64,000 nucleotides of DNA from an uncultured Rhodopila sp. (GTDB taxonomy: Bacteria > Pseudomonadota > Alphaproteobacteria > Acetobacterales > Acetobacteraceae): assembly GCF_903915725.1 (NCBI RefSeq), contig NZ_CAIWTY010000092.1:1-64000 (forward strand), read 5' to 3'. Under the pieces are notes generated by a model. The model saw only the letters and a list, made by a program, of their open reading frames with translations, was not told where the DNA came from and searched no databases. This document shows, in pieces, positions 4,659 to 60,914 of the stretch; position 1 is the stretch's first letter, and every line of letters starts with the position of its first letter. The translations under genes and the position numbers were made by a program.

Positions 4659-4668
4659 GGATCAGGCA

Positions 4669-4706
4669 AAGTCGTGGATGGCCGGACTAAATCCGGCCAT
4701 GACACA
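4669..4706. repeat. REP-like palindrome, single half
   Basis: 38 bases, from aagtcgtggatggccgg to ccggccatgacaca, forming one hairpin. It sits between the convergent methyltransferase-like gene and uvrA, where it could act as a bidirectional transcript end. Confidence 0.85.
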
Positions 4707-7861: not shown

Positions 7862-7955
7862 TGTGTCATGGCCGGACTTGGTCCGGCCATCCACGACTTT
7901 GGTTGGTTCGGCACCGCAAGTCGTGGATGGCCGGGACAAGCCCGGCCATGACACA
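7862..7955. repeat. REPIN-like doublet, 94 bp
   Basis: Two inverted copies of the 38-base palindrome separated by 18 bases. The left arm starts tgtgtcatggccgg and ends ccatccacgactt; the right arm is its reverse complement. Left and right loops differ, so each arm also folds alone. The length equals that of the copies at 31767 and 60821. Confidence 0.88.
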
Positions 7956-8210
7956 AATGCAGCGGCCCGTGACTGACACCCTATGTTAGCGCCTGGGGGA
8001 CAATCCCGGCCATGACACAAATGCAGCGGCCCGTGACTGACACCCTATGTTAGCGCCTGGGGGACAAGCCCGGCCATGACACAAATGCAGCGGCCCGTGA
8101 CTGACACCCTATGTTAGCGCCTGGGGGACAAGCCCGGCCATGATACAAACGCAGCGGCCCGTGACACGCACCTTATGTTAGCGCCTATGGGCCAAGCCCG
8201 GCCATGACAC
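7948..8210. repeat. 64-bp tandem repeat, four units plus partial
   Basis: Each unit starts atgacacaaatgcagcggcc and continues through gtgactgacaccctatgttag to ggacaagcccggcc. Unit starts are 7948, 8012, 8076 and 8140, with a partial one at 8204. The first three are nearly identical and the fourth has drifted. Every unit begins with the right end of the REP palindrome, so the array probably grew from the doublet at 7862. Confidence 0.9.
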
Positions 8211-8243
8211 GGCGGCAACGACCGTGCCCCGCCCCCCTCCGCC

Positions 8244-8630
8244 CTACCGCCGCCCCGGTTCACCCACCTCCAGCAGCCGGTCGGGCGTGAGCTGCTCCAG
8301 CGTCAGCGTCTCGCCGCCCGGGCTGACGATCATGATCTGCACGTTATACTGTATGGTCAGTTGCTTGCTCTGCTCGATCAGCGCCTCGGCTTTCCGCCGC
8401 TTGCGGATGCGATCGGCGATATCGCCAACCGCCAGCACGGCGCCGGGGACGGCCAGGATCACCGCGGCCAACGCGAGCGGATCGATGACCTTGCGGGCCG
8501 TCTCCGGCACATCGGAGGCTGCGATCTGCGTCACGAGTCCCGCTTCGTGCCCCTCGTTCAGCAGCGGCGTCAGCCGGGCCGCCGCCGCCTGAGCATGCGT
8601 GCCGCTGATGACAATCCGCACATCGTCCAT
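8244..8630 (-). CDS. Small membrane protein resembling effector-associated constant component (EACC1-like)
   Basis: 128 residues just downstream of the CHAT gene (27 bases apart, same strand). It starts with a short beta-like VRIVISG and a helical part. One hydrophobic helix (about 51-70, PLALAAVILAVPGAVLAVGD) and a basic RIRKRRK follow. The C-terminal strand region reads IMIVSPGGETLTLEQLTPD. This order (VRI strand, helix, central membrane helix, basic turn, terminal strands with a G.TLTL pattern) is like the EACC1 small proteins described beside NTPase-effector conflict systems. I recall that family from memory and the similarity is only visual. It may be the membrane or sensor partner of the CHAT protein. 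Confidence 0.6.
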   Translation of the reverse strand: MDDVRIVISGTHAQAAAARLTPLLNEGHEAGLVTQIAASDVPETARKVIDPLALAAVILAVPGAVLAVGDIADRIRKRRKAEALIEQSKQLTIQYNVQIMIVSPGGETLTLEQLTPDRLLEVGEPGRR

Positions 8631-8657: not shown

Positions 8658-11600
8658 TCAATTCAAGCCGGCGATGATCTGCTCCACCGCCGCTGCGTCC
8701 GCGACCCGCCCGAGTTTGCGAAAGGCGGCCGCGCTCTGCCCAAGCACAGCGGCGGCTTCGGCCTTCATGCCCGCCGCGGCGAGGATCTGGCCCAAGGTCG
8801 CGCCGACCGCCGCGATGCCATCTGCCCGGCCGAGTTTCAGCAGAAGAGGCCAGGCTTGCGCCAACCGCGGCAACGCCTGATCGATTTGGTCCCGCGCGAG
8901 TTCAATTTGCGCGATGTCCCATAGCGTTGACGCAGTGCCGTTAATGTCCCCCATGCGTTCGTGGGTCGCGAGCCGCTCCACCTGCAGTTTCAGCGCTTCA
9001 TCGACGTTGCCTGCTTGTGCCAAAAGCTGCGCGATCTTGCCCTGCGCGACCGCGATCTCGCGCATATCGCCCAGCCTTGTGTAGACCGGCAGCGTCTCCT
9101 CACGGTGGATGCGCAGCGCCTCGTCCAGCTCGCCGCGGGCCTCCAGGATGTCGGCGATCTTGCCCTGCGTGACCGCGACCGAGCGCACATCGCCCAGCCT
9201 TGTGTAGACCGGCAGCGTCTCCTCACGGCGGATGCGCAGCGCCTCGTCCAGCGCGCCGCGGGCCTGCAGGATGTCGGCGATCTTGCCCTGCGTGACCGCG
9301 ACCGAGCGCACATCGCCCAGCCTTGTGTAGACCGGCAGCTCCTCCTCACGGCGGATGCGCAGCGCCTCGTCCAGCTCGCCGCGGGCCTGCCGGATGTCGG
9401 CGATCCGGCCCTGCGTGAGCGCGACCGAGCGCACATCGCCCAGCCTTGTGTAGACCGGCAGCCTCTCCTCACGGTGGATGCGCAGCGCCTCGTCCAGCTC
9501 GCCGCGGGCCTGCAGGATGTCGGCGATCTTGGTCTGCGTGAGCGCGACCGAGCGCACATCGCCCAGCCTTGTGTAGACAGGCAGCTCCTCCTCACGGCGG
9601 ATGCGCAGCGCCTCGTCCAGCTCGCCGCGGGCCTGCAGGATGTCGGCGATCCGGCCGCGCGCCACCGCCAACTGACGGTCGTTGCCTCGTTTGCGCTGAA
9701 GCGCGCACAACCGCTCGAACGTCGCCAGTGCCGGCTGGATCAGGCCGGTGGCCTCTTGGTGGTTGCCCAGGGCGAACAGGAAGTTGCTGAGCTGACCGGG
9801 ATCGAGTTCGTGCTCGGCCTCGGCCAGCCGCGCCTCCCCCTTGGCCAGCATCGCCGCGGCCGCTTCGCCCTCGCCGATCGTACGCAGCGCCTCGCCGGTC
9901 CAGGACAGCAGCCGCAGCGATGGCAGCATCCCCAAACGCTCGAGCAGCGCCGCGGAGGCCTGCCCGAGCGAAGCCGCGTCCTTCACCTGCCGCTCCTGCA
10001 ACCCGCGCACCGCGTCGGCTGCGCAGGTGTCAACAACCTCGCCGTTGCCGGCCGCCAGGCCGAGGCGTGTCAGCAGGATGTCGGTGCTGTAGGGCCGGGA
10101 CTTCGACCCCGACACCCCGCCCCAGGCCGCGAACAAGGCTGGCAGGGCGATCACGGCCAGATCGGCCTGTTCCGCCTCCGTCAGCGGCGGCAGCCGTCCC
10201 GCCGGTAGGCCGTTCACCGCCAGCGCCGTGACCGCGTGATCCACCACGTCCTCGAACGGTTCCAGCAGACCGAGATCGGACAGGTGTTCGGCGGACCCGC
10301 CGATGGCCGCGGCCAGGGTCTCGATCACCGCCGCCGGCACCGGGATATCGAACAGCAGCGCCGCCCGCAGCAGGTCCCGGCCGGCCGGGGTGGCCTGCGC
10401 CAGCAACTCGTCCACCGCCAGGTTCTGCAGGAACTGGCGCACCTGCTCATCGTCAGGCAGGCTGCCGCCCTCCAGATAGGCCGTCATCTGATCGAGCACC
10501 GCCGCCGCCCGGTCCAATCCCACCGCCGGGCGCAGCACGAGACGATCGCCGATCAGGTCCTGCAGGCCGGGATTGCCGCGGGCGAGGCTTTCAGCGCGCC
10601 GCAGCAGCGGCAGCCGGGCGGCCAGGGCGGCATCGTCCAGGCGGGCGGCCGCCGCGGGCCGGGTCCGTGCCGCGGCCACCTGACGCAGGCTGAGCTTGCG
10701 CTGCGCCCCCGCAGCGAAGCGCGACAGCGGCCGTTCATGCAGGCGATCGGTCAGCTCTTCGCCGTTGTCATCCCGCAAGGTGAACGGGAACCGGCTGGTC
10801 AGTATCAGCCGGCTCTCGCTCAAGGCCGGGTCAAAGGCCCGCAGCACCGCCTGCAACACCGGCCGTTCCGCGGCCCTAACCCGATGCCGCCCCCCGTCAG
10901 GGTCGGCTTGCAGGATGCGTTCCAGGTCATCGATCAGCAGCAGCACGGGCTTGTCCCCGGCTTCGGCCTCACGGCATGGCCCCGCCAGAAGGTCGATCAG
11001 CAGCGCCTCCAGCGCCGCCGGGTTTTCCCGCACCGCGGCGCGGCGCTCGGCCAGCATCTGCCGCGCCGGGGCATGGGCTTTCAGCGCGTCCGCCAGGGCG
11101 TCGATCACGCTCAGGCTGTCGTAGTCGCCATAGACCACGGCCAGTTGCAGGTCGGGCCGGCGGTTGCTGATTCGCGCCGCCAGGCTCGACTTGCCGACGC
11201 GCCCCAGGCCGTGCAGCAGCAGGCCCGCCCGGTCGCCATCGGCCAGCAGCCGCAGCGCGGTTTGCAGTTCGCGCCGCCGGCCGACGAACATCGCCGGTTC
11301 GGCCACCGCCAGCGCGTCATCCTTCTTGCGCGCCAGGATCAGCTTCTGGCCATGATCCGGCGGCAGCAAAGATCGCCGCCGCGTGCCGCCGATGACCGCG
11401 CCGCCGCCCTCGGGGCCCAGCCAGACCCGCGCCAAATGCCAGTCCCGTTGCAGCGCATCCCGCGCCGACGCTAATTGCGCATCCAGGCCGGGTGGGGTGT
11501 CACCTGCGAAGTCCTTGCCGCCGGACGTTCCGCCGCCGGGCTGATGGCCGAGCAGCAGGGCCCGGCGGGCGCCCGCCGCGGCCTCCGTCACGGATTGCCG

Positions 11601-19068: not shown

Positions 19069-19172
19069 TTCCGGCGGCAGGCTGCGAAAAGGGACGGCGA
19101 TTTCATACGAGACACGTTATAACCTTGACTGGTCACCGGTTCCAATAGCTGCGCGCTCCCGCAAATCTTAGG

Positions 19173-19256
19173 CTTCCCAGCGGGGCTTCCCAGCGGGGCT
19201 TCCCAGCGGGGCTTCCCAGCGGGGCTTCCCAGCGGGGCTTCCCAGCGGGGCTTCCC
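19173..19256. repeat. 13-bp minisatellite
   Basis: Six exact units of cttcccagcgggg and a truncated seventh in the gap between the TPR gene and the hypothetical gene at 19333. Period 13 is not a multiple of three, so it is unlikely to be coding. Confidence 0.9.
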
Positions 19257-19332
19257 GAGGTGCTTCCGTCGAAAAAGCTTGAAAGTTTCGCGGCTACCCG
19301 GTAAGAACAAAGAACGAACAAACGGAACCGCG

Positions 19333-24079: not shown

Positions 24080-24390
24080 CCGCGTTTCGACGCAGAGTTC
24101 GCAGAGCGGGGCGCAGAGTCCGCAGAGTAAGCGGCTTCACAAGCCGCGGCGTCTGCATCCGGCGATATCGGACCGCGCACAAATCGGCCCCTGCGCACGG
24201 TCGTACCATGCATCATGGCGGGCGCAAGCCCGCCATCCACGTCTCGGTTTCTACAAGAAAAGACCTGGCGGCCGAGTTTCGCCGGCATAACGGGGCGGCA
24301 ACGACAGAGCCTCGATCCCACCTCCGGTTGATCCACGACCATCTCTGCGCACTCTGCGCCCCGCTCTGCGAACTCTGCGTCGAAACGCGG
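24080..24390. repeat. 48-bp inverted repeat pair flanking 215 bases
   Basis: Left arm 24080-24127 (ccgcgtttcgacgcagagtt, continuing gcagagcgg...) and right arm 24343-24390 are near-perfect inverted copies with about one or two differences. The arms are made of repeated gcagag/ctctgcg blocks. They sit in the 439-base gap between nrdR and ribD. A single REP half (24211-24241) lies in the loop. I see no gene in this gap. Confidence 0.85.
24211..24241. repeat. REP-like palindrome, single half
   Basis: catcatggcgggcgcaagcc continuing to cgccatccacg: the left half of the doublet family with base changes in the stem, so a diverged copy. It lies in the loop between the two arms at 24080 and 24343. 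Confidence 0.7.
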
Positions 24391-26357: not shown

Positions 26358-26930
26358 ATGTCCGGTCTTGCCAAACGCATCGTGGCCCTGCCAAGCCTTT
26401 CGGCGACCGAGGCGCTCGCGGCCGGGATCGCGGCCATGGCGCGGGCAGGGGACTGTATCCTGCTGGAGGGGCCGCTGGGCGCCGGCAAGACCGCCTTCGC
26501 CCGGGCCTTCCTGCGCGCCGCGGCGGACGATCCGGCGCTGGAGGTGCCCAGCCCGTCGTTCACCCTGGTGCAGAGCTACGAGACGAAAATCGGTCTGGTG
26601 TTTCATTATGATCTGTGGCGGCTCGATGGGTCCGCTTCCCTGACCGAACTCGATTGGGAAGACGCTCTCGACGCCATCGTCCTGGTGGAATGGCCCGATC
26701 GGCTCGGCAACCTGCGGCCGGAGACGGCATTGACGATCCAGTTTGAGACTGGGGATGGAGATGTACGGGAGGCGGCGCTGACCGGATGGGACGGACGGCT
26801 GCCTGCCTCGTTTTCGTCATGGCCCGGCTTGTCCGGGCCACCAATACCCGCACCTGCCGCGACAGGTGGCCCGGACAACACCCCGGACAAGCCGGGGCAG
26901 GGCCCTGACGGTGGCGCGGCGGCGGCATGA
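26358..26930 (+). CDS. tsaE: tRNA t6A biosynthesis ATPase TsaE with a repeat-derived C-terminal tail
   Basis: 190 residues. TsaE is the ATPase partner of TsaBD in threonylcarbamoyl-adenosine formation on tRNA. Walker [11 protein letters not shown] is at residues 38-47, followed by [11 protein letters not shown] and the HYDLWRL motif; DWEDALD near 100 fits Walker-B-like chemistry. The family averages about 150 residues. The last 38 or so residues here ([26 protein letters not shown]) come from an inserted palindromic repeat, and have no counterpart in the family. The alternative start at 26322 gives 12 extra residues. Overlaps amgK by four bases. Confidence 0.93.
26817..26905 (+). repeat. REP-family palindrome inside tsaE (3' end)
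   Basis: Left arm tcatggcccggcttgtccgg plus gccacc, right arm ggtggcccggacaa followed by a duplicated caccccggacaa and gccggggcagg. The reading frame gives SWPGLSGPP, the same phase as in the addB copy at 30691. The right arm is disturbed by the internal duplication. Confidence 0.8.
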
Positions 26931-27919
26931 CCCGGGATGACCGCATCGCCATCTTTCTCGCCCGCAACGGCTACGCACCGGGCGACGCGGAACCCCTCGC
27001 GCAGGACGCCAGCTTCCGCCGTTATTTGCGTATCCGCGGTCCCCGTCCCGCCGTCCTGATGGACGCGCCGCCGCCCGAGGATGTCCGGCCGTTCCTGCGC
27101 ATCGCCGCCCATCTCCTTGGAATTGGCCTGTCCGTTCCGCGCATTACCGACGCCGACGAGATCAACGGCTTGGTCCTGGAGGAAGACCTCGGCGACGACC
27201 TGCTGTCCGTTACGCTCGACCGGGGCGACGACCCCGACCCGTTGCTGGATGCCGCCGTGGATGCATTGACCGTCCTGCAACGTGCTGCGCCGCCCGCCGG
27301 GCTTCCGGCCTGGGGCGTCGCCGCAATGGCCGCGACCGCGATCGGCACGCTGTTCGACTGGTGGTGGCCGGCGCGCTTCGGAGACCCGGCACCTCAGGCC
27401 GCCCGTGACGAGCTCGCGGTGGCTTTGGCCGACATGCTCGAACCCGTCGCGGCCGGGCCGGTTTGCATGGTTCACCGCGACTACTTCGCCGGCAATCTGC
27501 TGTGGCTGCCGCATCGCTCCGGCCCGCTGCGTGCCGGGATCATCGACTTCCAGGGCGCCGCGCTCGGCCATCCGGCCTATGATCTGGTTTCCCTGCTGCA
27601 AGACGCGCGCCGCGACATCCCGCCACTGTCTCAGCAACGCGCCCTGGACCGCTATCTGGCTGCCCGGCCGGAGTTGAATGCGAACGCGTTCCGTGCCGCA
27701 TTTGCCGCATGTGCCGCACAACGGCATCTCCGGGTCGCCTGCCAGTGGGTAAGGCTTGCCCTGCGCGACGCCCGGCCGCAATACCTCGCCTACGGGCCGC
27801 GGACTTGGCGCCTGCTGGATGACTCGTTGCGCCACCCTGCCGCCGCGCCGCTCGCCCGCGCCTTGAACCATTGGATACCGGCCGCGCTGCGCGGCAACCC
27901 CCCGGGACTCGATCCATGA
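26927..27919 (+). CDS. amgK: Sugar kinase AmgK-like, aminoglycoside phosphotransferase fold
   Basis: 330 residues. Members phosphorylate N-acetylmuramate/N-acetylglucosamine at the anomeric carbon, feeding peptidoglycan recycling. The kinase loop VCMVHRDYFAGNLLW (catalytic Asp) and the metal-binding GIIDFQGAALGHPAYDL are clear. N-lobe motif LAQDASFRRYLRI is intact. The next gene is the matching nucleotidyltransferase MurU, which gives the kinase assignment most of its weight. The start overlaps tsaE by four bases (ATGA) and the end overlaps murU. Confidence 0.85.
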   Translation: MTRDDRIAIFLARNGYAPGDAEPLAQDASFRRYLRIRGPRPAVLMDAPPPEDVRPFLRIAAHLLGIGLSVPRITDADEINGLVLEEDLGDDLLSVTLDRGDDPDPLLDAAVDALTVLQRAAPPAGLPAWGVAAMAATAIGTLFDWWWPARFGDPAPQAARDELAVALADMLEPVAAGPVCMVHRDYFAGNLLWLPHRSGPLRAGIIDFQGAALGHPAYDLVSLLQDARRDIPPLSQQRALDRYLAARPELNANAFRAAFAACAAQRHLRVACQWVRLALRDARPQYLAYGPRTWRLLDDSLRHPAAAPLARALNHWIPAALRGNPPGLDP

Positions 27920-28659
27920 CTTTCGCTCCGCATTCCGCCATGGTCCTTGCCGCCGGCTTCGGCACCCGCATGCGGCCGTTGACTGACAATACCGCCAAGC
28001 CGCTGGTGAAACTGGGGGGGCGAACCCTGCTGGACTATGCGCTCGATCATTTGGTGGTGGCGGGCGTCGAGATGGTCGCGGTCAACGCGCACTGGCAGGC
28101 CGACGCCGTCGCGGCGCATCTGGCGAGCAGGCCCACCCCGCCGCGGACGCTGCTGCTGCGTGAGGAGCATCTGCTGGACACCGGCGGCGGCGTGCGCGCG
28201 GCGCTTCCGCTGCTCGGCGACGATCCGTTCTTTGTCCTCAATGGCGATGCGTTCTGGCTGAACGGGCCGATACTGACGTTGCAGCGCCTCGCGGCGGCGT
28301 TCGATGACACGGTGGATGCCGTACTGCTGCTGCAACGGACGGCCTATGTGCATGCCGATGTCGGTTATGGCGACTTTGCCCTCGACAAGTGGGGCAAGCC
28401 GAGACGGCGGCGGGAACGCGAGGTGGTGCCTTATATCTTCGCCGGCGTGCAGCTTATCCGTCCCCGGCTGCTGGCCGGGATGCCGGATGGCGCCTTCAGC
28501 ATGAACCGCGCCTGGGACGCCGCCCTGGCGGCTGACCGCGTGCGCGGCGTTGTGCATGACGGCATCTGGTTTCACCTCTCCACCCCGGCCGATCTGGCGG
28601 AGGCCGAGCAGATCCTGGAGGCCAGTGTCACCGGGGATGCGCGCTGGCCGTGGCGCTGA
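27916..28659 (+). CDS. murU: N-acetylmuramate 1-phosphate uridylyltransferase MurU
   Basis: 247 residues. It makes UDP-MurNAc from MurNAc-1-phosphate, the second step after AmgK in cell-wall recycling. The nucleotidyltransferase signature MVLAAGFGTRMRPLTDNTAKPL opens the protein, with the Asp-containing FFVLNGDAFW near 110. The start overlaps amgK's stop (ATGA); length is standard. AddB's GTG start is inside this gene's end, so the coupling is tight. Substrate by family and neighbourhood, not by residue proof. Confidence 0.87.
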   Translation: MTFAPHSAMVLAAGFGTRMRPLTDNTAKPLVKLGGRTLLDYALDHLVVAGVEMVAVNAHWQADAVAAHLASRPTPPRTLLLREEHLLDTGGGVRAALPLLGDDPFFVLNGDAFWLNGPILTLQRLAAAFDDTVDAVLLLQRTAYVHADVGYGDFALDKWGKPRRRREREVVPYIFAGVQLIRPRLLAGMPDGAFSMNRAWDAALAADRVRGVVHDGIWFHLSTPADLAEAEQILEASVTGDARWPWR

Positions 28660-31600
28660 ACCTCTTTACGGTTCCCCCGAACGTCCCGTTTCTCGACGCG
28701 CTGGCGAGCGGCTGGCTTGCGCGCGGCGACGACCCCCTGCTCGTCAGTCGCGGCCTCATTCTCCTTCCCACCCGCCGATCGGCCAGGGGATTGGCGGAGG
28801 CGTTTTTAAGAGTGCGGGATGGGCGGCCGATGCTGCTGCCGCGCATCACCGCGCTGGGCGCGCTGGATGAGGCGCCGCTGGCACTGACCGGGGCGCTCGA
28901 TCTGCCTCCGGCGGTGGAACCGATGCAGCGGCTGGCGGCGCTGTCCACTCTGATCCTGGCGATGGATGGCGCGGGCGGGGCGCCGCGTTCGGCGGACGGT
29001 GCCTGGCTGCTCGCCCGCGAACTGGCGTCGCTGATGGATGAGGCGGAGCGCGCCGGCATCGATCTGGCGCAGCGCCTGCCCGATGCGGCCGAACCGGACT
29101 TCGCCGAGCATTGGGCGAAGACGCTGAAATTCCTGCATATCGTGACGGCGTTCTGGCCGGCGTGGCTGGCGCAGCACGGCGTGATGAACCCGGCGGCGCG
29201 GCAGGTGGCCCTGCTGCGGGCTCAGGCGGCGGCCTGGGAGAACGATCTGCCGGATTATCCGGTGCTGATCGCCGGCACGACGGCGGGGATCCCGGCGGTC
29301 GCGCGGCTGCTGCGCGTTGTGGCGCGCCTGCCGTTGGGCCAGGTGGTGCTGCCCCAGTTGGATACCGGGATGTCCGATGAGGCCTGGGCGGCGCTGGAAC
29401 CGTCGCACGCCCAGGCTGGCTTGGCTCGGCTGCTGGCGGACCTGGATGCAACGCGCGGCGATGTGCGGGTGTGGGAGAGCGGCGCCTCGGCGGCGGTTCC
29501 CGCAACGCGGTTCCCGCTGTTGTCTCGGGTATTGCTCCCCGCCGCCGCGCTGCACGACTGGCTGGAGCGCGGACCGGTCTCGCTGGAGGGGCTGTCGCGG
29601 CTCAATGCGGCGGATCAGCAGCAGGAGGCGCAGGCCATCGCGCTGGTGCTGCGGGAGGCGCTGGAAACGCCCGGGGCGCGGGCTGCCTTGGTGACTCCGG
29701 ACCGCGACCTCTCCGGACGGGTAGCGGCGGCGCTGCTGCGCTTCGGCATCGTCGCCGACGACAGCGCGGGCGAGCCACTGGCCGATACACCGCCTGCCGT
29801 GTTCATACGCCTGCTGGTGCGGGCGGTGGCCGAGGAACTGGCGCCGGTCGCGCTTCTGGCGCTGCTGAAGCATCCGCTGGCGGCGGCGGGTCTATCCCCC
29901 GTTGCCTGCCGCGAAGCGGCCCGGACGCTGGAGACACTGTGCCTGCGCGGACCAAGGCCGATGCCGGGCATCGCCGGGCTGCGCATCGCGGTTGACCGGG
30001 AGGCGGGAGCGGCCTCCGCCACGGCGGCGTTCCTGTCACGAATAGAAACCTGCCTGGAGCCGGCGTTGCGGTTCGACTCGGCGATGGAGATTGCCCCGGC
30101 CGAGGCGCTGGCCGCGGTGATCGAGGCAGCCGAGCGGCTGGCGGCGACGGCCGAAACCGAGGGCCCCGCCCGGCTTTGGGCGGCGGAGGAAGGCGAGGCC
30201 CTGGCCACCCGGCTGGCCGAATTGCAGTCGGCGGTGGCGATCATGCCCGATTTGCAGCGGCGGGTATTGCCCGGCCTGCTGGACGCCGTGCTGGCGGGTG
30301 AGGTGGTGCGCAGCCGCCGGGCCTTGCGAGGATGCGGCGGGTTCGAGCATCCGCGGATTTTCATCTGGGGCCTGCTGGAGGCTCGGCTGCAATCGGCCGA
30401 TGTGGTGGTGTTGGGCGGGTTGGCGGAGTCGATCTGGCCGCCAATGGCCGAACCGGGACCCTGGCTATCGCGTCCTATGCGGACTCGCGTGGGTCTGCCG
30501 GCACCGGAGGAGGCGGTGGGGCAGGCGGCGCATGACTTCCTCGCCGCGTGCTGCGCGGCGCCGAGGGTGGTGCTGTCCTGTCCGGTGCGCCGCGACAACG
30601 CCCCGGCGGTGCCGGCGCGCTGGCTGACGCGGTTTGACATGTTTCTGGCGGGGCGGGTCGTTGGTGTCGTGGCATCTGCGTCCACTTCCCCCACGTCATG
30701 GCCCGGCTTGTCCGGGCCACCTGTAGCGGCAGGTGCGGCGACAGGTGGCCCGGACAAGCCGGGCCATGACGTGGTTGCAGGTCTTCCCACCCACCCCGCC
30801 GCCGCATGGGCACGCGCGATGGACCTCCCCGCCGGCCCGCCGAACCCGGTCCGGCCCCCTCGGCCCTGCCCGCCGGTAAACCGCCGCCCCCGCCGCCTAA
30901 GTGTCACCGCGATCGAGACCTGGCTGCGCGACCCCTACGCCATCCACGCCCGCCACATCCTGAAGCTGGAAGCGCTGCGCCCGCTCGAAGAAGAGACGGA
31001 CGCCTCCGACTACGGCTCGCTGGTGCATGACGGCTTGCACCGCTTCCTCTGTGCCCATGGCGCCGCCTGGCCGGCCGATGCGGCGCAGGAATTGCGCCTC
31101 GCGATGGCGCGCGCTCTGGCCGAGGCGCAACTTCGTCAGGCCCTGCAAGCCTGGTGGACGCCCAGGCTGGAGCGGATCGCCGACTGGGTCGCCGAAACCG
31201 AAGCCGCCCGCCGGGCGCTGCGCCGGCCCGTCGCGATAGCGCCCGAGGCAAAAGGTGCAATCGAACTGCTCCGTCCCGGCGGGATGTTCCGGCTGACCGG
31301 CCGGGCCGACAGGATTGAGCAGTACAGCGACGGGACGCTGTCGATCCAGGACTACAAGACCGGCGCGCCGCCGACACAGCAGGACGTCGATGCCGGCCTG
31401 GCGCCGCAGCTTCTGCTCGAGGCCGCGATGGCGGCGCAGGGCGGGTTTGGCGCTGAACTCGCCGGGCAGACGGCGGAGTTGCTGTATTGGCATCTGTCGG
31501 GCGGCCTCGACCCCGGCCGCGCGATGCCGCTGTTCAAGAAGAACCCCGGAGACATCCAGGCCGCCGTGCAGGATGCAAGGGAGCGGCTGTGCGCGCTGAT

Positions 31601-31730
31601 CGACTCGTTCGACCAGCCCGGCCGCGCCTACCTGTCGCGTCCCAACCCGGGGTTGGCGCCACGGTTTTCCGACTATGGGCAACTTGCCCGGGTGGCGGAA
31701 TGGTCCGCCGCGGGAGATGGCGATGAGTGA
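28650..31730 (+). CDS. addB: Double-strand break repair protein AddB carrying an in-frame palindrome insert
   Basis: 1026 residues. AddB is the second subunit of the AddAB helicase-nuclease that processes double-strand ends to load RecA. Residues 1-660 are the inactivated helicase-like part; residues about 740-1000 hold the PD-(D/E)XK nuclease core, with GRADRIE and LSIQDYKTG (catalytic Asp and Lys) and QLLLEA. Start GTG overlaps murU's end. Between the two parts, residues about 681-708 are encoded by an 84-base perfect inverted repeat (30691-30774), which gives [13 protein letters not shown] and TGGPDKPG. This looks like a tolerated linker insertion. addA lies 170 bases downstream, with a REPIN between. 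Confidence 0.93.
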   Translation: MALNLFTVPPNVPFLDALASGWLARGDDPLLVSRGLILLPTRRSARGLAEAFLRVRDGRPMLLPRITALGALDEAPLALTGALDLPPAVEPMQRLAALSTLILAMDGAGGAPRSADGAWLLARELASLMDEAERAGIDLAQRLPDAAEPDFAEHWAKTLKFLHIVTAFWPAWLAQHGVMNPAARQVALLRAQAAAWENDLPDYPVLIAGTTAGIPAVARLLRVVARLPLGQVVLPQLDTGMSDEAWAALEPSHAQAGLARLLADLDATRGDVRVWESGASAAVPATRFPLLSRVLLPAAALHDWLERGPVSLEGLSRLNAADQQQEAQAIALVLREALETPGARAALVTPDRDLSGRVAAALLRFGIVADDSAGEPLADTPPAVFIRLLVRAVAEELAPVALLALLKHPLAAAGLSPVACREAARTLETLCLRGPRPMPGIAGLRIAVDREAGAASATAAFLSRIETCLEPALRFDSAMEIAPAEALAAVIEAAERLAATAETEGPARLWAAEEGEALATRLAELQSAVAIMPDLQRRVLPGLLDAVLAGEVVRSRRALRGCGGFEHPRIFIWGLLEARLQSADVVVLGGLAESIWPPMAEPGPWLSRPMRTRVGLPAPEEAVGQAAHDFLAACCAAPRVVLSCPVRRDNAPAVPARWLTRFDMFLAGRVVGVVASASTSPTSWPGLSGPPVAAGAATGGPDKPGHDVVAGLPTHPAAAWARAMDLPAGPPNPVRPPRPCPPVNRRPRRLSVTAIETWLRDPYAIHARHILKLEALRPLEEETDASDYGSLVHDGLHRFLCAHGAAWPADAAQELRLAMARALAEAQLRQALQAWWTPRLERIADWVAETEAARRALRRPVAIAPEAKGAIELLRPGGMFRLTGRADRIEQYSDGTLSIQDYKTGAPPTQQDVDAGLAPQLLLEAAMAAQGGFGAELAGQTAELLYWHLSGGLDPGRAMPLFKKNPGDIQAAVQDARERLCALIDSFDQPGRAYLSRPNPGLAPRFSDYGQLARVAEWSAAGDGDE
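30691..30774 (+). repeat. 84-bp perfect inverted repeat inside addB
   Basis: 34-base arms, 30691-30724 and 30741-30774, are exact reverse complements with a 16-base loop. The arm starts ccacgtcatggcccggc and is the diverged sister of the intergenic tgtgtcatggccgg repeat. Its total length is a multiple of three and has no stop, so the addB frame is preserved. Confidence 0.95.
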
Positions 31731-31766: not shown

Positions 31767-31860
31767 TGTGTCATGGCCGGGCTTGTCCCGGCCATCCACG
31801 ACTTACGGGGCGGGTCGCGGCAAAGTCGTGGATGGCCGGACCAAGTCCGGCCATGACACA
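31767..31860. repeat. REPIN-like doublet, 94 bp
   Basis: Two inverted 38-base palindromes with 18 bases between, same size and arm ends as at 7862 and 60821 (tgtgtcatggccgg... and aagtcgtggatggccgg). It sits between addB and addA and may explain why these normally touching genes are 170 bases apart. Confidence 0.92.
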
Positions 31861-36256: not shown

Positions 36257-36454
36257 CCTCAAAGATCGGCGGAGATAGAGCGTGTTTGCAACCAGTTCGT
36301 ACTCGGCCGGCTCAGCCTGAAGCCGTCCAGGGACCGGGACAGAACGCGTCAGAAATGGGCGGTCATTGATATGCGGGCCGAATTGACCGTCACATAATAC
36401 CCACGTGCGGGTAGCACGATTTGGTTTCAGGTCCCCAAACGGAGGTTGTTTCTA

Positions 36455-36610
36455 ATGGCTGACGATCCCAACAAGGTATGGCCGACCGGCCTTACCATTG
36501 CCGAGTCCGAAGAGCTGCACAAGCATGTCATCGATGGCACCCGCGTTTTCGGGCTGCTGGCCATCGTGGCGCACCTGCTCGCCTTCGTTTATTCCCCCTG
36601 GCTGCACTAA
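36455..36610 (+). CDS. pucB: LH2 antenna beta subunit, copy 1
   Basis: 51 residues, [20 protein letters not shown] then a membrane helix. His40 in [15 protein letters not shown] is the bacteriochlorophyll ligand, and PWL is the conserved end. A second His (22, LHKHV) is where the B800 site lies in LH2. The RBS ggagg stands 12 bases before ATG. It is followed 14 bases later by the alpha gene. It is one of two near-identical copies; the other starts at 37424. Confidence 0.93.
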
Positions 36611-36624
36611 GAGGGTAGCGAACC

Positions 36625-36822
36625 ATGAACCAAGGTAGACTCTGGACCGTCGTCAGCCCGAGCGTTGGCCTGCCGCTGTTCCTCGCCGCCGTCGCTATCG
36701 TGTCGGTTGTGATCCATCTCGCCCTGCTGACCCACACCACGTGGCTCCCGGGCTACTACAATGGCAAGGCGAAGGCCGCGGCTCTGGTCGTGCCGGCGCA
36801 GCAGTTCGTCCTTCCGGCGTAA
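36625..36822 (+). CDS. pucA: LH2 antenna alpha subunit, copy 1
   Basis: 65 residues. [10 protein letters not shown] is the classical LH2 alpha start (MNQGKIWTVVNP in other species), rather than the LH1 type. His31 in [14 protein letters not shown] is the bacteriochlorophyll ligand, with the H-bonding aromatic region HTTWLPGYY following. The C-terminal tail is longer than in well-known LH2 ([11 protein letters not shown]). The second copy at 37593 differs at a few positions. A strong terminator follows. Confidence 0.93.
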
Positions 36823-37148: not shown

Positions 37149-37340
37149 ATGGAAGCCTGTGCTATGGTGCTGATGACGCCCGAAGACCTCTCGGTGCGTC
37201 GCCTGGAAGCTGCGGTCGCGGCCACGGGCATCGATTTCATCGGTATCGGCGCCGGCAAACAAGGCTCCTCTGGCCAGGCTGCACGCCACCGTGTCCAGTC
37301 CAACCAGCGGTGGAATGCGCCAGAAATGAGCGGTCATTGA
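37149..37340 (+). pseudogene. bchC: Truncated bchC remnant between the two pucBA copies
   Basis: 63-codon frame starting MEACAMVLMTPEDLSVRR, against [18 protein letters not shown] of bchC at 39450, with the same RBS taggaggtgccggg. After residue 18 it diverges by a small deletion but the DNA still aligns with codons 34-55 of bchC (catcga.. gctcctctgg / cttctctgg). It breaks off in the leader of pucBA copy 2. It lacks the cofactor-binding domain, so it cannot be an enzyme. It is the trace of a tandem duplication of this region. Confidence 0.85.
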
Positions 37341-37423
37341 TATGCGGGCCGGCTTGACCGCCACGTATTGTCCGCTCGCGGGCAGTACGAAATCCTATCA
37401 GGTCCCATTTGGAGGTTATTGGA

Positions 37424-37579
37424 ATGAGTGACGATCCCAACAAGGTATGGCCGACCGGCCTGACCATCGCCGAGTCCGAAGAGCTTCACAAACACGTCAT
37501 CGATGGCACCCGCGTTTTCGGGCTGATCGCCATCGTGGCCCATCTGCTCGCCTTCGTTTATTCACCCTGGCTGCACTAA
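37424..37579 (+). CDS. pucB: LH2 antenna beta subunit, copy 2
   Basis: 51 residues, differing from copy 1 at position 2 (Ser for Ala) and at Ile for Leu in [13 protein letters not shown]. His40 and PWL are intact, so it should still bind bacteriochlorophyll. RBS ggagg before ATG. It is 13 bases from the second alpha gene. Confidence 0.93.
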
Positions 37580-37592
37580 GGGGTAGCGAATC

Positions 37593-37787
37593 ATGAACCA
37601 AGGTAGACTCTGGACCGTCGTGAACCCGAGCATCGGGCTCCCGCTGTTCCTCGCCGCTGTCGCGATCACCTCGGTGATCATCCATCTGGCGCTGCTGACC
37701 CACACCACGTGGCTGCCGGCCTACTACAATGGCAAGGCTCACGCCGCCCTTGTGGTCCCGGCTCAGACGCTCGTACTTCCGGCGTAA
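37593..37787 (+). CDS. pucA: LH2 antenna alpha subunit, copy 2
   Basis: 64 residues. [15 protein letters not shown] is closer to the textbook LH2 alpha start than copy 1. His31 remains ([14 protein letters not shown]). The tail is one residue shorter ([11 protein letters not shown]). Its differences with copy 1 are conservative, so both are probably functional. Mixed rings are possible but not shown. Confidence 0.93.
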
Positions 37788-39357: not shown

Positions 39358-39397
39358 TGTAAATGCCGGTTGACAATCATGACAGTCAATTTAGGCT
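39358..39397 (+). promoter_or_regulatory. PpsR/CrtJ-type site and candidate promoter of bchC
   Basis: Exact TGT-N12-ACA at 39358-39375. Its end is also TTGACA (39370-39375) as a -35; TAGGCT at 39392-39397 with a 16-base spacer could be the -10. Repressor and polymerase would compete. Hairpin CCCGACC-5 nt-GGTCGGG (39417-39435) follows, just before taggagg. Confidence 0.65.
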
Positions 39398-39449
39398 TAC
39401 ACCTAACGGGAGAAAGCCCGACCAAGGCGGTCGGGTAGGAGGTGCCGGG

Positions 39450-40385
39450 ATGGAAGCCTTAGCTGTCGTGCTGAATAACCCCGAAAGCCTCTCGGTGCGC
39501 CGCATCTCCCTGACGCCACCCGGCGACATGGACGTGGTGGTGGACATCGACTGGAGCGGGATCAGCACGGGCACCGAACGGCTTCTCTGGCAGGGGCGCA
39601 TGCCCCCGTTTCCCGGCCTCGGCTATCCTCTGGTTCCCGGCTACGAGTCCGTCGGCCGCATCGTCGCCGCCGGCCCGGACCATAAGGCCCGCATCGGCGA
39701 GACCGTCTACGTGCCCGGCGCGACCTGCTACGGCGATATTCGCGGCCTGTTCGGAGGGGCATCCTCCCGGGTCGTCATACCGGCCGCCAAGGCGGTGACG
39801 ATTGATCCCGCCTTGGGCGAAAAGGGTGTCCTGATTGCTCTCGCCGCGACCGCGCAACATGCGATCGTGGGTCCCGTGCTCCCTGACCTGATTGTAGGAC
39901 ATGGAGTCGTCGGGCGACTGGTAGCGCGGCTTGTGCTGGCGGCCGGCGGTGCCCCGCCGGTGGTGTGGGAAACCAATCCCCAACGCACAGGCGGCGCCAC
40001 CGGTTACGACGTGAAGCGGCCGGACGAGGACAGCCGCCGCGACTACCGCTGCATCTGCGATGCCAGCGGCGATCCGAACCTGCTCGACACGCTGATCATG
40101 CGCCTTGCCGCCGGCGGCGAAATCGTTCTCGCCGGCTTCTACGCCGATCGGCTGTCGTTCGCGTTCCCGATGGCGTTTATCAAACGGGCGAAATTCCGCA
40201 TCGCCGCGGAATGGCAGCCGGCGGACCTGGAGACGGTGCGTGAACTCATCACTAACGGAAAACTTTCTCTCGATGGACTGATTACACATCACATGGACGC
40301 CGTTCAGGCGGATCTGGCTTATCGAACCGCTTTCGGCGACTCGACCTGCCTTAAAATGATTCTGGATTGGAGGACGCATTCATGA
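39450..40385 (+). CDS. bchC: 3-hydroxyethyl bacteriochlorophyllide a dehydrogenase
   Basis: 311 residues. BchC oxidises the 3-hydroxyethyl group to acetyl on the bacteriochlorophyllide ring. It has an MDR fold but with an N-terminus unlike alcohol dehydrogenases: [32 protein letters not shown] is the family hallmark. RBS taggagg 7 bases before ATG. It overlaps bchX by four bases (ATGA), so the operon is bchCXYZ-puf as in other purple bacteria. Crt genes normally next to it are not in this window. PpsR-type site upstream. Confidence 0.94.
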
Positions 40386-48996: not shown

Positions 48997-49743
48997 ACGG
49001 CTCGCGGGGCGGCTGGCCCGGCCGGCCGCCCTTCCCGCCCGCCTGCGTCCGGCATTGCACCGGCCGGCGTTGACTATGACTTTTCGGCTGCGCCTTCCCG
49101 TCATGCCGGCGGAGCATGCCCCGGCGAAGGCCGGTGTCGGCATCGACGCCCATTGCTGATACGAACAAGGGCGTGGCTCGCGGGCCTGCGCCCGCCATGA
49201 CGAACAAAGCCGCTTGCGCGAACGGGCCACTCCCGCCGGCAATTGGCTGCCGGACGTTACGCCGCCTGGTGCCCGCCCCGGCGATCCCGCTCCGCCACCA
49301 GCGCATGCACCCGAGGCAGCAGCTCCCGCCCACCGGAGGCGCGCAGGCCGATAGGGTCTAAAGTTTCGACGAACCTGTACGCCGGCGGCACCGAGCGGCA
49401 CCAGCAACGATCCGGTACGCGGCGTGGCCTCATCGTACGCGCCCAGACCAGTCCCCGAGGGAGGCCCGGCGAGCCGGTCGAGTAGATCTTATGGTTGGTG
49501 TTCCGCCAGCCATCGGCGGTGCGCCGCGGGATGGTGTCGGGCGCGGGCGGAACAGCGGCCCGATCCGCTAACCCGTGCATCATCGCCGTGCCTTTTCGTG
49601 ACGTTGGCCACGGACCGATAGCCGGGACTGCAAAGATATCCTTGCCATTGCGGGAAACGAAGCGGCACGACAATCCCCCACCGGAGCCCCCTCCAGGTGG
49701 ATCGCTTCGCCGTTCCGCTGCCCGTGAAGGTGGAAAAACAGCT
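48997..49743. other. Gap of 747 bases without a supported gene, with a diverged REP doublet
   Basis: Right after the cytochrome gene. 49097-49205 holds REP-family halves: the right one (49168-49205, aagggcgtggctcgcgggcc to cgccatgacg) keeps the end pattern and the left one is rearranged. Open frames around 49424-49845 show no coding character. The rest (49210-49743) is unassigned. Confidence 0.6.
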
Positions 49744-53567: not shown

Positions 53568-54082
53568 CGCCGGTTTGCTCGTGGCTGGGACGTGTTTCCG
53601 AGTTTAATTATCCCGTATCCATCCACGGCAAATGGCATGGCGCCAGCTATCGGTTATTCACGATCTACCGCTGTAACAATCCCCGCTCTCACAAGCCGGA
53701 ATTTGAAGCGCCGTTCGCGCGCCTGGACTACGCCGGCGGAAATCGATTTGACCTGCTTCGGCACCGGCACACGGGCCAATGGCTCCGCATGTTTAGATGC
53801 GCTCCGCTCGCCGGAGCGTTGCGTCTGATCGAAACCCGGGAGTATTTCTTCCCGCGCCGATCGGCTTCGGGTGTCGCTTTGGCTGGATGACGTTGGGTGG
53901 CCGGCTTGTAGGCAACAAAGCCGTTTGTAGGCAAGCATAAGGGAAACACAAATGAACACGAATGAACACAAATAGATGGGCCACGGCTGGCGTTACGTCG
54001 GATGGCACGATTTATTTGTGTTCATTCGTGTTCATTTGCGTTTCAATTTACTTGCCTAGACAAAACGATGCTGTTCCTCATC
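53568..54082. other. Gap of 515 bases without a supported gene, with a 31-bp inverted repeat
   Basis: 53944-53974 (aaacacaaatgaacacgaat continuing gaacacaaata) and 54013-54043 are reverse complements with one mismatch, loop 38 bases. This part is unusually A/T-rich for the window and resembles repeats of the aatgaacacgaatgaac kind seen in other bacteria. Nothing else supported. Confidence 0.7.
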
Positions 54083-60820: not shown

Positions 60821-60914
60821 TGTGTCATGGCCGGGCTTGTCCCGGCCATCCACGACTTTGCCCGATCCGGCACCGCAAGTCGTGGATAGCCGGACTAAAT
60901 CCGGCCATGACACT
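60821..60914. repeat. REPIN-like doublet, 94 bp
   Basis: tgtgtcatggccgg on the left and ccggccatgacac on the right, with arms ccatccacgacttt / aagtcgtgg. Same length as at 7862 and 31767. It lies in the gap 60757-61084, which has nothing else that I can support. Confidence 0.9.

Follow-up and report, generated by a model that had tools for sequence, protein, structure and literature searches.

The 64-kb stretch of DNA analysed here, which we call the window, comes from an uncultured Rhodopila sp. (assembly GCF_903915725.1, contig NZ_CAIWTY010000092.1, positions 1–64,000 of the forward strand). It has a GC content of 66%, belongs to a genome of 6.7 Mb (G000), and is assigned to Rhodopila, Acetobacteraceae, by its named relatives. 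Two genes in the window, tsaE and addB, each contain a palindromic repeat of the repetitive extragenic palindrome (REP) type that is translated as part of the protein (Table 1). AddAB is the counterpart of RecBCD. Read in the frame of its gene, each copy gives SWPGLSGPP...GGPD; this common phase had been noticed in an earlier reading based on the letters alone (the sequence-only reading) and is confirmed by sequence and translation. The repeat adds from about 26 (AddB) to 32 (TsaE) amino acids.

In AddB the REP core corresponds to residues ~682–708, N-terminal to the PD-(D/E)XK nuclease domain (residues 749–982), and the full-length model TIGR02786 spans the insert. The sequence-only reading described the addB copy as a perfect inverted repeat of 84 bases. 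This holds for the outer 34 nt on each side, which pair perfectly, and for the in-frame length, but the middle 16 nt pair imperfectly and 78 of the 84 positions are symmetric. Folded as RNA with its flanks, the addB copy reaches –88.9 kcal/mol, compared to –41.5 ± 3.5 kcal/mol for shuffled sequences (z –13.6). In the tsaE copy the right unit exceeds that of the 78-bp form by 18 bp, which makes this copy an imperfect palindrome; its RNA fold is predicted at –61.4 kcal/mol (z –4.8). The TsaE family match ends upstream of the insert, at residue 133 (Pfam) or 143 (NCBIfam). Of the two possibilities raised earlier for the TsaE tail, extension or replacement, extension is the one that stands, as no domain is replaced. 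AlphaFold models were poor (mean predicted local distance difference test score, pLDDT, 45.5 for TsaE and 35.0 for AddB, five sequences each) and were not used as evidence, and a phmmer search against the PDB found no AddB homologue.

Table 1. Genes and REP elements in the window
Feature	Position	Strand	Remarks
tsaE (190 aa)	26358..26930	+	TsaE domain residues 12–133; REP-encoded peptide from ~154
REP dimer inside tsaE C-terminal tail	26815..26910		96 bp = 32 codons; left arm exact, right unit longer subtype
addB (1026 aa), alphaproteobacterial AddB equivalog	28650..31730	+	Family matches
REP dimer inside addB	30691..30774		Outer inverted repeat, 84 bp; core CGTCA...TGACG 30694–30771 (78 bp = 26 codons)
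addB REP unit arms	30699–30719 and 30746–30766		26-bp spacer between 26-nt arms
Sister-type (TGTC) REP dimer, intergenic, between addB and addA	31767..31860		Sequence and fold
Sister-type REP dimer, intergenic, then 64-bp tandem array built on its right end	7862..7955		Sequence
Sister-type REP dimer, intergenic	60821..60913		Sequence
Single sister-type REP unit	4659..4706		Sequence

The element is a head-to-head dimer of a CGTC-tagged REP. Each unit runs CGTC-A-TGGCCCGG-loop CTTGT-CCGGGCCA-CCT and is followed by its mirror unit across a spacer of ~26 bp, with the CGTC tag outside the stem at one end (CGTCATGG...CCATGACG in most listed copies). CGTC REPs have been defined (Di Nocera et al. 2013, PMC3733652) by a CGTC, TGTC or CCTC tag, an 8–9 bp stem starting with complementary AT, a 4–5 nt loop and, mostly, a CCA tail. 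The stem TGGCCCGG/CCGGGCCA has 8 bp, but the A of its starting AT faces a C and the T-A pair alone is kept. The loop CTTGT has 5 nt, within the defined range. The unpaired tail is CCT in the addB type and CCA in the sister type of the window; CCT is a deviation, but the definition gives CCA for most units only, so that CCA is not strictly defining. The sister type, TGTC-ATGGCCGGG-CTTGT-CCCGGCCAT-CCA and variants, has a 9-bp stem in which ATGGCCGGG and CCCGGCCAT pair in full. A third type of palindrome, built along the same lines (CGTCATGG ... CCATCCACG), is found at window positions 24213–24260, 35951 and 49153–49200, and in G000 and relatives it occupies some of the positions at which the addB type is present in another species. 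At 7862–8252 a sister-type dimer runs into a 64-bp tandem array, each unit of which contains the right REP end. From this array and from a 21-bp in-frame array in tsaE of another Rhodopila genome (G119, locus L170), REP ends look like seeds of tandem repeats. A known RNA family was considered and rejected, as all Rfam matches fall below the gathering scores and were taken as fits to hairpins. The families mir-5882, mir-m21-1 and MIR439 match the palindromes at 31769–31858 and 30701–30764 below threshold with E-values down to 6e-7, and we caution that such values reflect hairpins, not homology.

The repeat is abundant in G000. A 22-nt arm with up to three mismatches has 116 forward and 97 reverse matches in this genome, and the reversed control has 1 + 0. 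Chance low-complexity sequence was rejected on these counts. The Pro/Gly-rich peptide and the GC-rich genome might suggest that the two genes share low-complexity coding sequence that merely resembles a repeat, but the arm matches and the absence of the segments from most homologues examined refute this, and we give it a negligible probability. Elements were counted in a 956-kb sample of G000 made up of the window and the stretches around copies with an exact arm, which biases the sample toward young copies; it holds 83 elements, 65 of them paired. The sequence-only reading placed the same repeat between genes. The addB type is indeed intergenic elsewhere in G000, but the intergenic palindromes in the window itself are of the sister type. 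Copies in G000 lie mainly between tandem (49) and convergent (21) genes, with five between divergent ones, at a median of 57 bp to 3′ ends (n = 91) and 104 bp to 5′ ends (n = 59). In Rhodopila globiformis (G101) the pattern is less clear, with 25 tandem, 17 convergent and 9 divergent neighbor pairs and distances of 240 and 350 bp to 3′ and 5′ ends. With up to two mismatches, the arm is found in 9 of 100 genomes of the family (G000 included), some of these matches being the sister type. With up to one mismatch it is found in 20 of 33 genomes of the genus, eight of which have at least 50 matches. The number of matches ranges widely: 508 in R. globiformis, 386 in G119, 223 in G099, 163 in G000 and 9 in G125. 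The labels G099, G106, G116, G117, G119 and G125 all denote further Rhodopila genomes.

The repeat in both addB and tsaE is an insert, because homologues without the repeat lack the corresponding segments; this is also the outcome of the comparison that the sequence-only reading had proposed as a check. In other genera, 28 loci were inspected and 24 could be parsed, and in every one of the 24 the AddB stretch from the ARWL motif to LSVT is short (for one of them, L104, the match began at an earlier point and the sequence was inspected by eye). Most split alignments among the family AddB matches listed break at about residues 666–672 and 710–712. One other genus among these matches (G066, 46% identity) aligns through the insert site. 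Within the genus, AddB carries the repeat in four Rhodopila species: the linker has the exact-arm form in G000, G099 and R. globiformis, and also in G119, where both contigs end inside the repeat. It holds a sister-type copy in G106, a degenerate copy in G117 and another sequence in G116, is near-empty in G125, whose AddB is 92% identical to that of G000, and is empty in G104, G109 and L146, the last from a proteobacterial metagenome-assembled genome not named Rhodopila. The tsaE tail contains the addB type in G000 and in G119, where the 21-bp tandem array has grown from the repeat end, the sister type in R. globiformis and a single unit in G106; it has no repeat in G099, G104, G109 and others. 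G125 keeps only CGTC followed by GGGCCATGACG in tsaE, which we read as a probable scar of an in-frame deletion. The repeat is also present in a third gene of G000 and G119, called FmdB-like after a below-cut-off match to TIGR03129 (104.5 and 123.9 vs 327.8 bits); in G125 this gene contains one sister-type unit read in a different frame, and in G116 and G106 it contains none. Automatic typing assigned anything with up to three mismatches to the addB type; two of these assignments, for the tsaE copy of R. globiformis and for the site in G099 that matches L076:8001, were changed by eye to the sister type.

We infer the order of gain and loss from an AddB tree built without the linker, in which G119 is represented by its left part only. 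G000 and G125 group with support 91, joined by G119 at 100 and by R. globiformis at 74; most nodes outside the G000/G125/G119 group are weak (28–74). On this tree it would be more parsimonious to assume loss in G125 at three sites than independent gains in G000 and in G119. What argues against plain inheritance is that G000 has the longer subtype in tsaE, a subtype seen at four other loci of G119 (up to three mismatches), whereas the tsaE copy of G119 itself is the short form. At another locus (L163, G118), tsaE continues in frame into the next gene, a phosphotransferase (507 codons open), and a weak REP half (4 mismatches, peptide KPGHDDE) lies near the junction, a possible REP-linked gene fusion.

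Genes exclude the repeat. Genes were called with a purpose-made caller seeded by window genes, most of which had been named through family matches. In the four genomes counted, 19 of 224 elements overlap called genes (4 of 83 in G000, 5 of 58 in R. globiformis, 3 of 35 in G099 and 7 of 48 in G119), although the coding fraction of the sampled DNA is 84%, 76%, 87% and 83%, respectively (binomial P < 1e-23 in each). The suggestion that the repeat is a general source of domain linkers in this genome is not supported by these figures. Eight types of host protein match a known family, and in every one the insert falls outside the stretches assigned to domains. These are TsaE, AddB, HypF, an MBOAT/DltB-like protein, a D-glutamate-cyclase-like protein, a CO-dehydrogenase/CoxG fusion, a tetratricopeptide repeat (TPR) protein and the FmdB-like protein; the result excludes L239 and L227:9634–10701, which have no family match, and three doubtful, unscanned short open reading frames (127, 130 and 154 aa). 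HypF of R. globiformis (L188:3654–6113) has a double REP insert of ~46 residues between the zinc finger and the YrdC domain.

The great stability of the addB hairpin could mean that the in-gene copies are not usefully translated, and that the hairpin truncates or destabilizes the message of genes that are decaying. We regard this as very improbable, as the codons past the insert are coding-like and conserved and the AddB nuclease domain is intact, Pfam-positive and in the same frame. Moreover, the addB DNA just beyond the insert is 76–78% identical in G099 and R. globiformis, with the frame free of stops.

Which frames of a copy are open depends on its length. Read in both orientations and summed over four genomes, intergenic copies of the 78-bp class are open in the SWPGLSGPP frame in 104 of 108 readings, in the HGPACPGHL frame in 56 of 108 and in the VMARLV frame in 5 of 108. 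One frame dominates because, in copies whose length keeps the frame, the other frames are interrupted by stop codons located in arms and spacer. The phase shared by the addB and tsaE copies, which the sequence-only reading had pointed out, is thus weak evidence: a frame that is nearly forced does not need selection for the peptide to explain it, and by itself it should not be read as such selection. Among the copies that overlap genes, 14 of 19 begin in the SWPGLSGPP frame, or 8 of 13 when counted by distinct site (addB, tsaE and FmdB-like recur). The exceptions are L042 in G000, which uses the HGPAC frame, L218 in G099 and three weak short open reading frames. In-gene cores of paired elements are a multiple of three in 4 of 4 cases in G000 (27 of 61 for the others) and in 4 of 4 in G119 (20 of 27).

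We are confident that the CGTC-tagged REP dimers in genes are, as a whole, best read as tolerated passengers. They would have copied themselves to at least 100 places in the Rhodopila genome, mostly between genes and near gene ends. A copy inside a gene would survive if its net length is divisible by three (78 or 96 bp), if it offers a stop-free frame, usually SWPGLSGPP...GGPDKPGHD, and if it falls in a stretch that serves as linker or tail, as do the segment preceding the nuclease domain in AddB and the C-terminal tail of TsaE. The encoded peptide would most likely be a neutral passenger that can be removed by in-frame deletion. The proposal of a mobile-looking, multi-copy hairpin tolerated as extra peptide has held up, given the number of arm matches and the position of the inserts between or beyond domains.

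Several results weigh against this reading. When copies of all length classes in G000 are considered, the SWPGLSGPP frame is open in 55, the HGPACPGHL frame in 86 and the VMARLV frame in 16 of 122 readings, so that SWPGLSGPP is not the most open frame. This picture differs because copies one base longer change frame inside, and such copies would shift the gene. The frame rule is valid only in combination with the length rule, and the length rule itself is based on few sites. Multiples of three are mixed in R. globiformis (2 of 4; others 9 of 46) and G099 (1 of 3; others 2 of 19), where the in-gene sets include C-terminal copies and short doubtful open reading frames. A target-site duplication, as expected of a MITE, was not found, the flanking linkers having diverged too far for a base-exact boundary, and no transposase was found: G000 has no match to the one family searched, Y1_Tnp/RAYT (REP-associated tyrosine transposase; PF01797). 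Lastly, the DNA is more alike than expected. In pairwise comparisons of the addB copies of G000, G099 and R. globiformis, the 26-nt arms always agree at 52 of 52 positions and the spacers vary. At codons for the same residue, third positions agree at 0.91 and 0.95 inside the repeat compared to 0.59 and 0.67 outside. The shared feature is thus the DNA sequence, including silent sites, and not the peptide alone. Such identity exceeds that of a neutral passenger kept by vertical descent and calls for another process: the copies may have been inserted recently, converted by copying from other loci, or held constant by selection at the DNA level, for instance on the hairpin, and each of these could explain the likeness.

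Selection might also act through the protein or its gene, the peptide or hairpin tuning AddAB (and TsaE), for example by altering recombination, as PMC3733652 speculated for repair genes bearing REPs. The same source has REPs in recBCD and other repair genes, two Xanthomonas recB genes having one at about the same site, and the addB dimer recurs in G000, G119, G099 and R. globiformis, with the sister type in G106 and degenerate remains in G117. We nevertheless find it unlikely that the inserts are kept in this way. The conserved part is DNA including silent sites, the addB copy of G125 is all but lost, the linker of G116 is different, and the other hosts in the sampled genomes are unrelated enzymes.

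Different REP types use the same sites in related species, which, like the identical arms in diverged addB genes, is a less expected result. The comparison covers a small number of orthologous sites at loci fetched from partial genomes. Six non-gene site pairs of G000 and G119 comprise four with the addB type on both sides (one degenerate) and two with a different CGTC-tagged palindrome in one species. Both site pairs of G000 and G099 are of different type; of the two pairs of G000 and R. globiformis, one is of different type and one is empty. The sister-type site at 31767 is empty in G099 and R. globiformis, yet holds another type in G125. It is conceivable, although we put it at less than even, that the linkers of addB and the FmdB-like gene and the tail of tsaE act as permanent docking sites, where whole CGTC-REP cassettes are exchanged in the course of time through copying from other loci or through re-insertion, with the frame kept. 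We entertain this because the same gene site holds the addB type, the sister type, a scar or nothing across Rhodopila species, and because the arms match those found across the genome even when the host gene differs by a fifth.

Mobilization by RAYT is unsupported in G000. In the genus, Y1/RAYT is present in 5 of 33 genomes and in 1 of the 8 genomes with at least 50 arm matches. Six loci of 2–3.4 kb around Y1/RAYT genes of the genus contain no addB-type arm, and in three of these loci there are one or two isolated CGTCATGG-like 8-mers. The lack of Y1/RAYT in G000 fits the statement in PMC3733652 that CGTC REPs are without a dedicated transposase.

The window contains further repeats. Six overlapping 269-nt copies at a spacing of 123 bp, a tandem period of 41 codons, occupy 8908–9791, and a tandem array of about six copies of the 13-mer GGCTTCCCAGCGG lies at 19158–19261. 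Direct copies at 36342–36789 and 37313–37757, ~970 bp apart, are 79–92% identical in three blocks, with related stretches at 39358–39503. At 53943–54044, an inverted repeat of 35 nt, 94% complementary and interrupted by a gap of 32 nt, is visibly AT-rich compared to the window.

The repeat is a known sort of element, in a new host family and in new genes. It resembles the CGTC REPs of PMC3733652 in its tag, 8-bp stem, 5-nt loop and head-to-head dimers (with spacers of 20–100 bp there), and also in its alphaproteobacterial host, its place in tandem and convergent gaps near 3′ ends, the lack of a dedicated transposase and the occurrence of some copies within genes, including repair genes. It differs from the usual CGTC REP in the CCT tail, the broken first pair of the AT stem and the host, Acetobacteraceae being stated there to lack CGTC repeats. 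The intragenic copies reported in that article are in many repair genes, recBCD among them, and AddB is not named in its text. The analogy with the palindromic elements of Rickettsia (Rickettsia palindromic elements, RPEs) drawn by the sequence-only reading is apt, since PMC3733652 places RPE-4 and RPE-6 among the CGTC REPs. As in the RPE insertions into proteins summarized in PMC2229807, a palindrome is read in frame inside conserved proteins, but the Rhodopila repeat differs in sequence and host, is 78–96 bp instead of 105–146 bp long and has only a small minority of its copies in genes. Br-REP1 and Br-REP2 of Bradyrhizobium are likewise alphaproteobacterial palindromes near 3′ ends whose copy number varies between relatives; their sequence is different, and PMC5082802 describes them in intergenic regions. 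GTAG REPs borne by RAYTs are also short palindromes, often in head-to-head pairs, but the Rhodopila repeat lacks the GTAG tag, and the search of G000 gave no Y1/RAYT transposase. REP-like palindromes in Acetobacteraceae are not new in print, since PMC12306157 gives 1,369 REPs counted by a general tool in Lichenicola cladoniae. A literature search of titles and abstract openings, with most subscription journals outside it, gave no title that deals with this repeat in Rhodopila, in AddB or in TsaE.

These results extend in-frame CGTC REPs to the Acetobacteraceae and add AddB to the repair genes that carry them. If the docking sites are real, they would represent a concerted in-frame turnover of REPs inside protein genes without a known transposase, and this turnover at fixed sites in genes is the part that deserves follow-up. 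G000 and G125, sisters among the genomes in the tree and so different in their number of arm matches, offer a natural comparison for the spread of CGTC REPs without a transposase.

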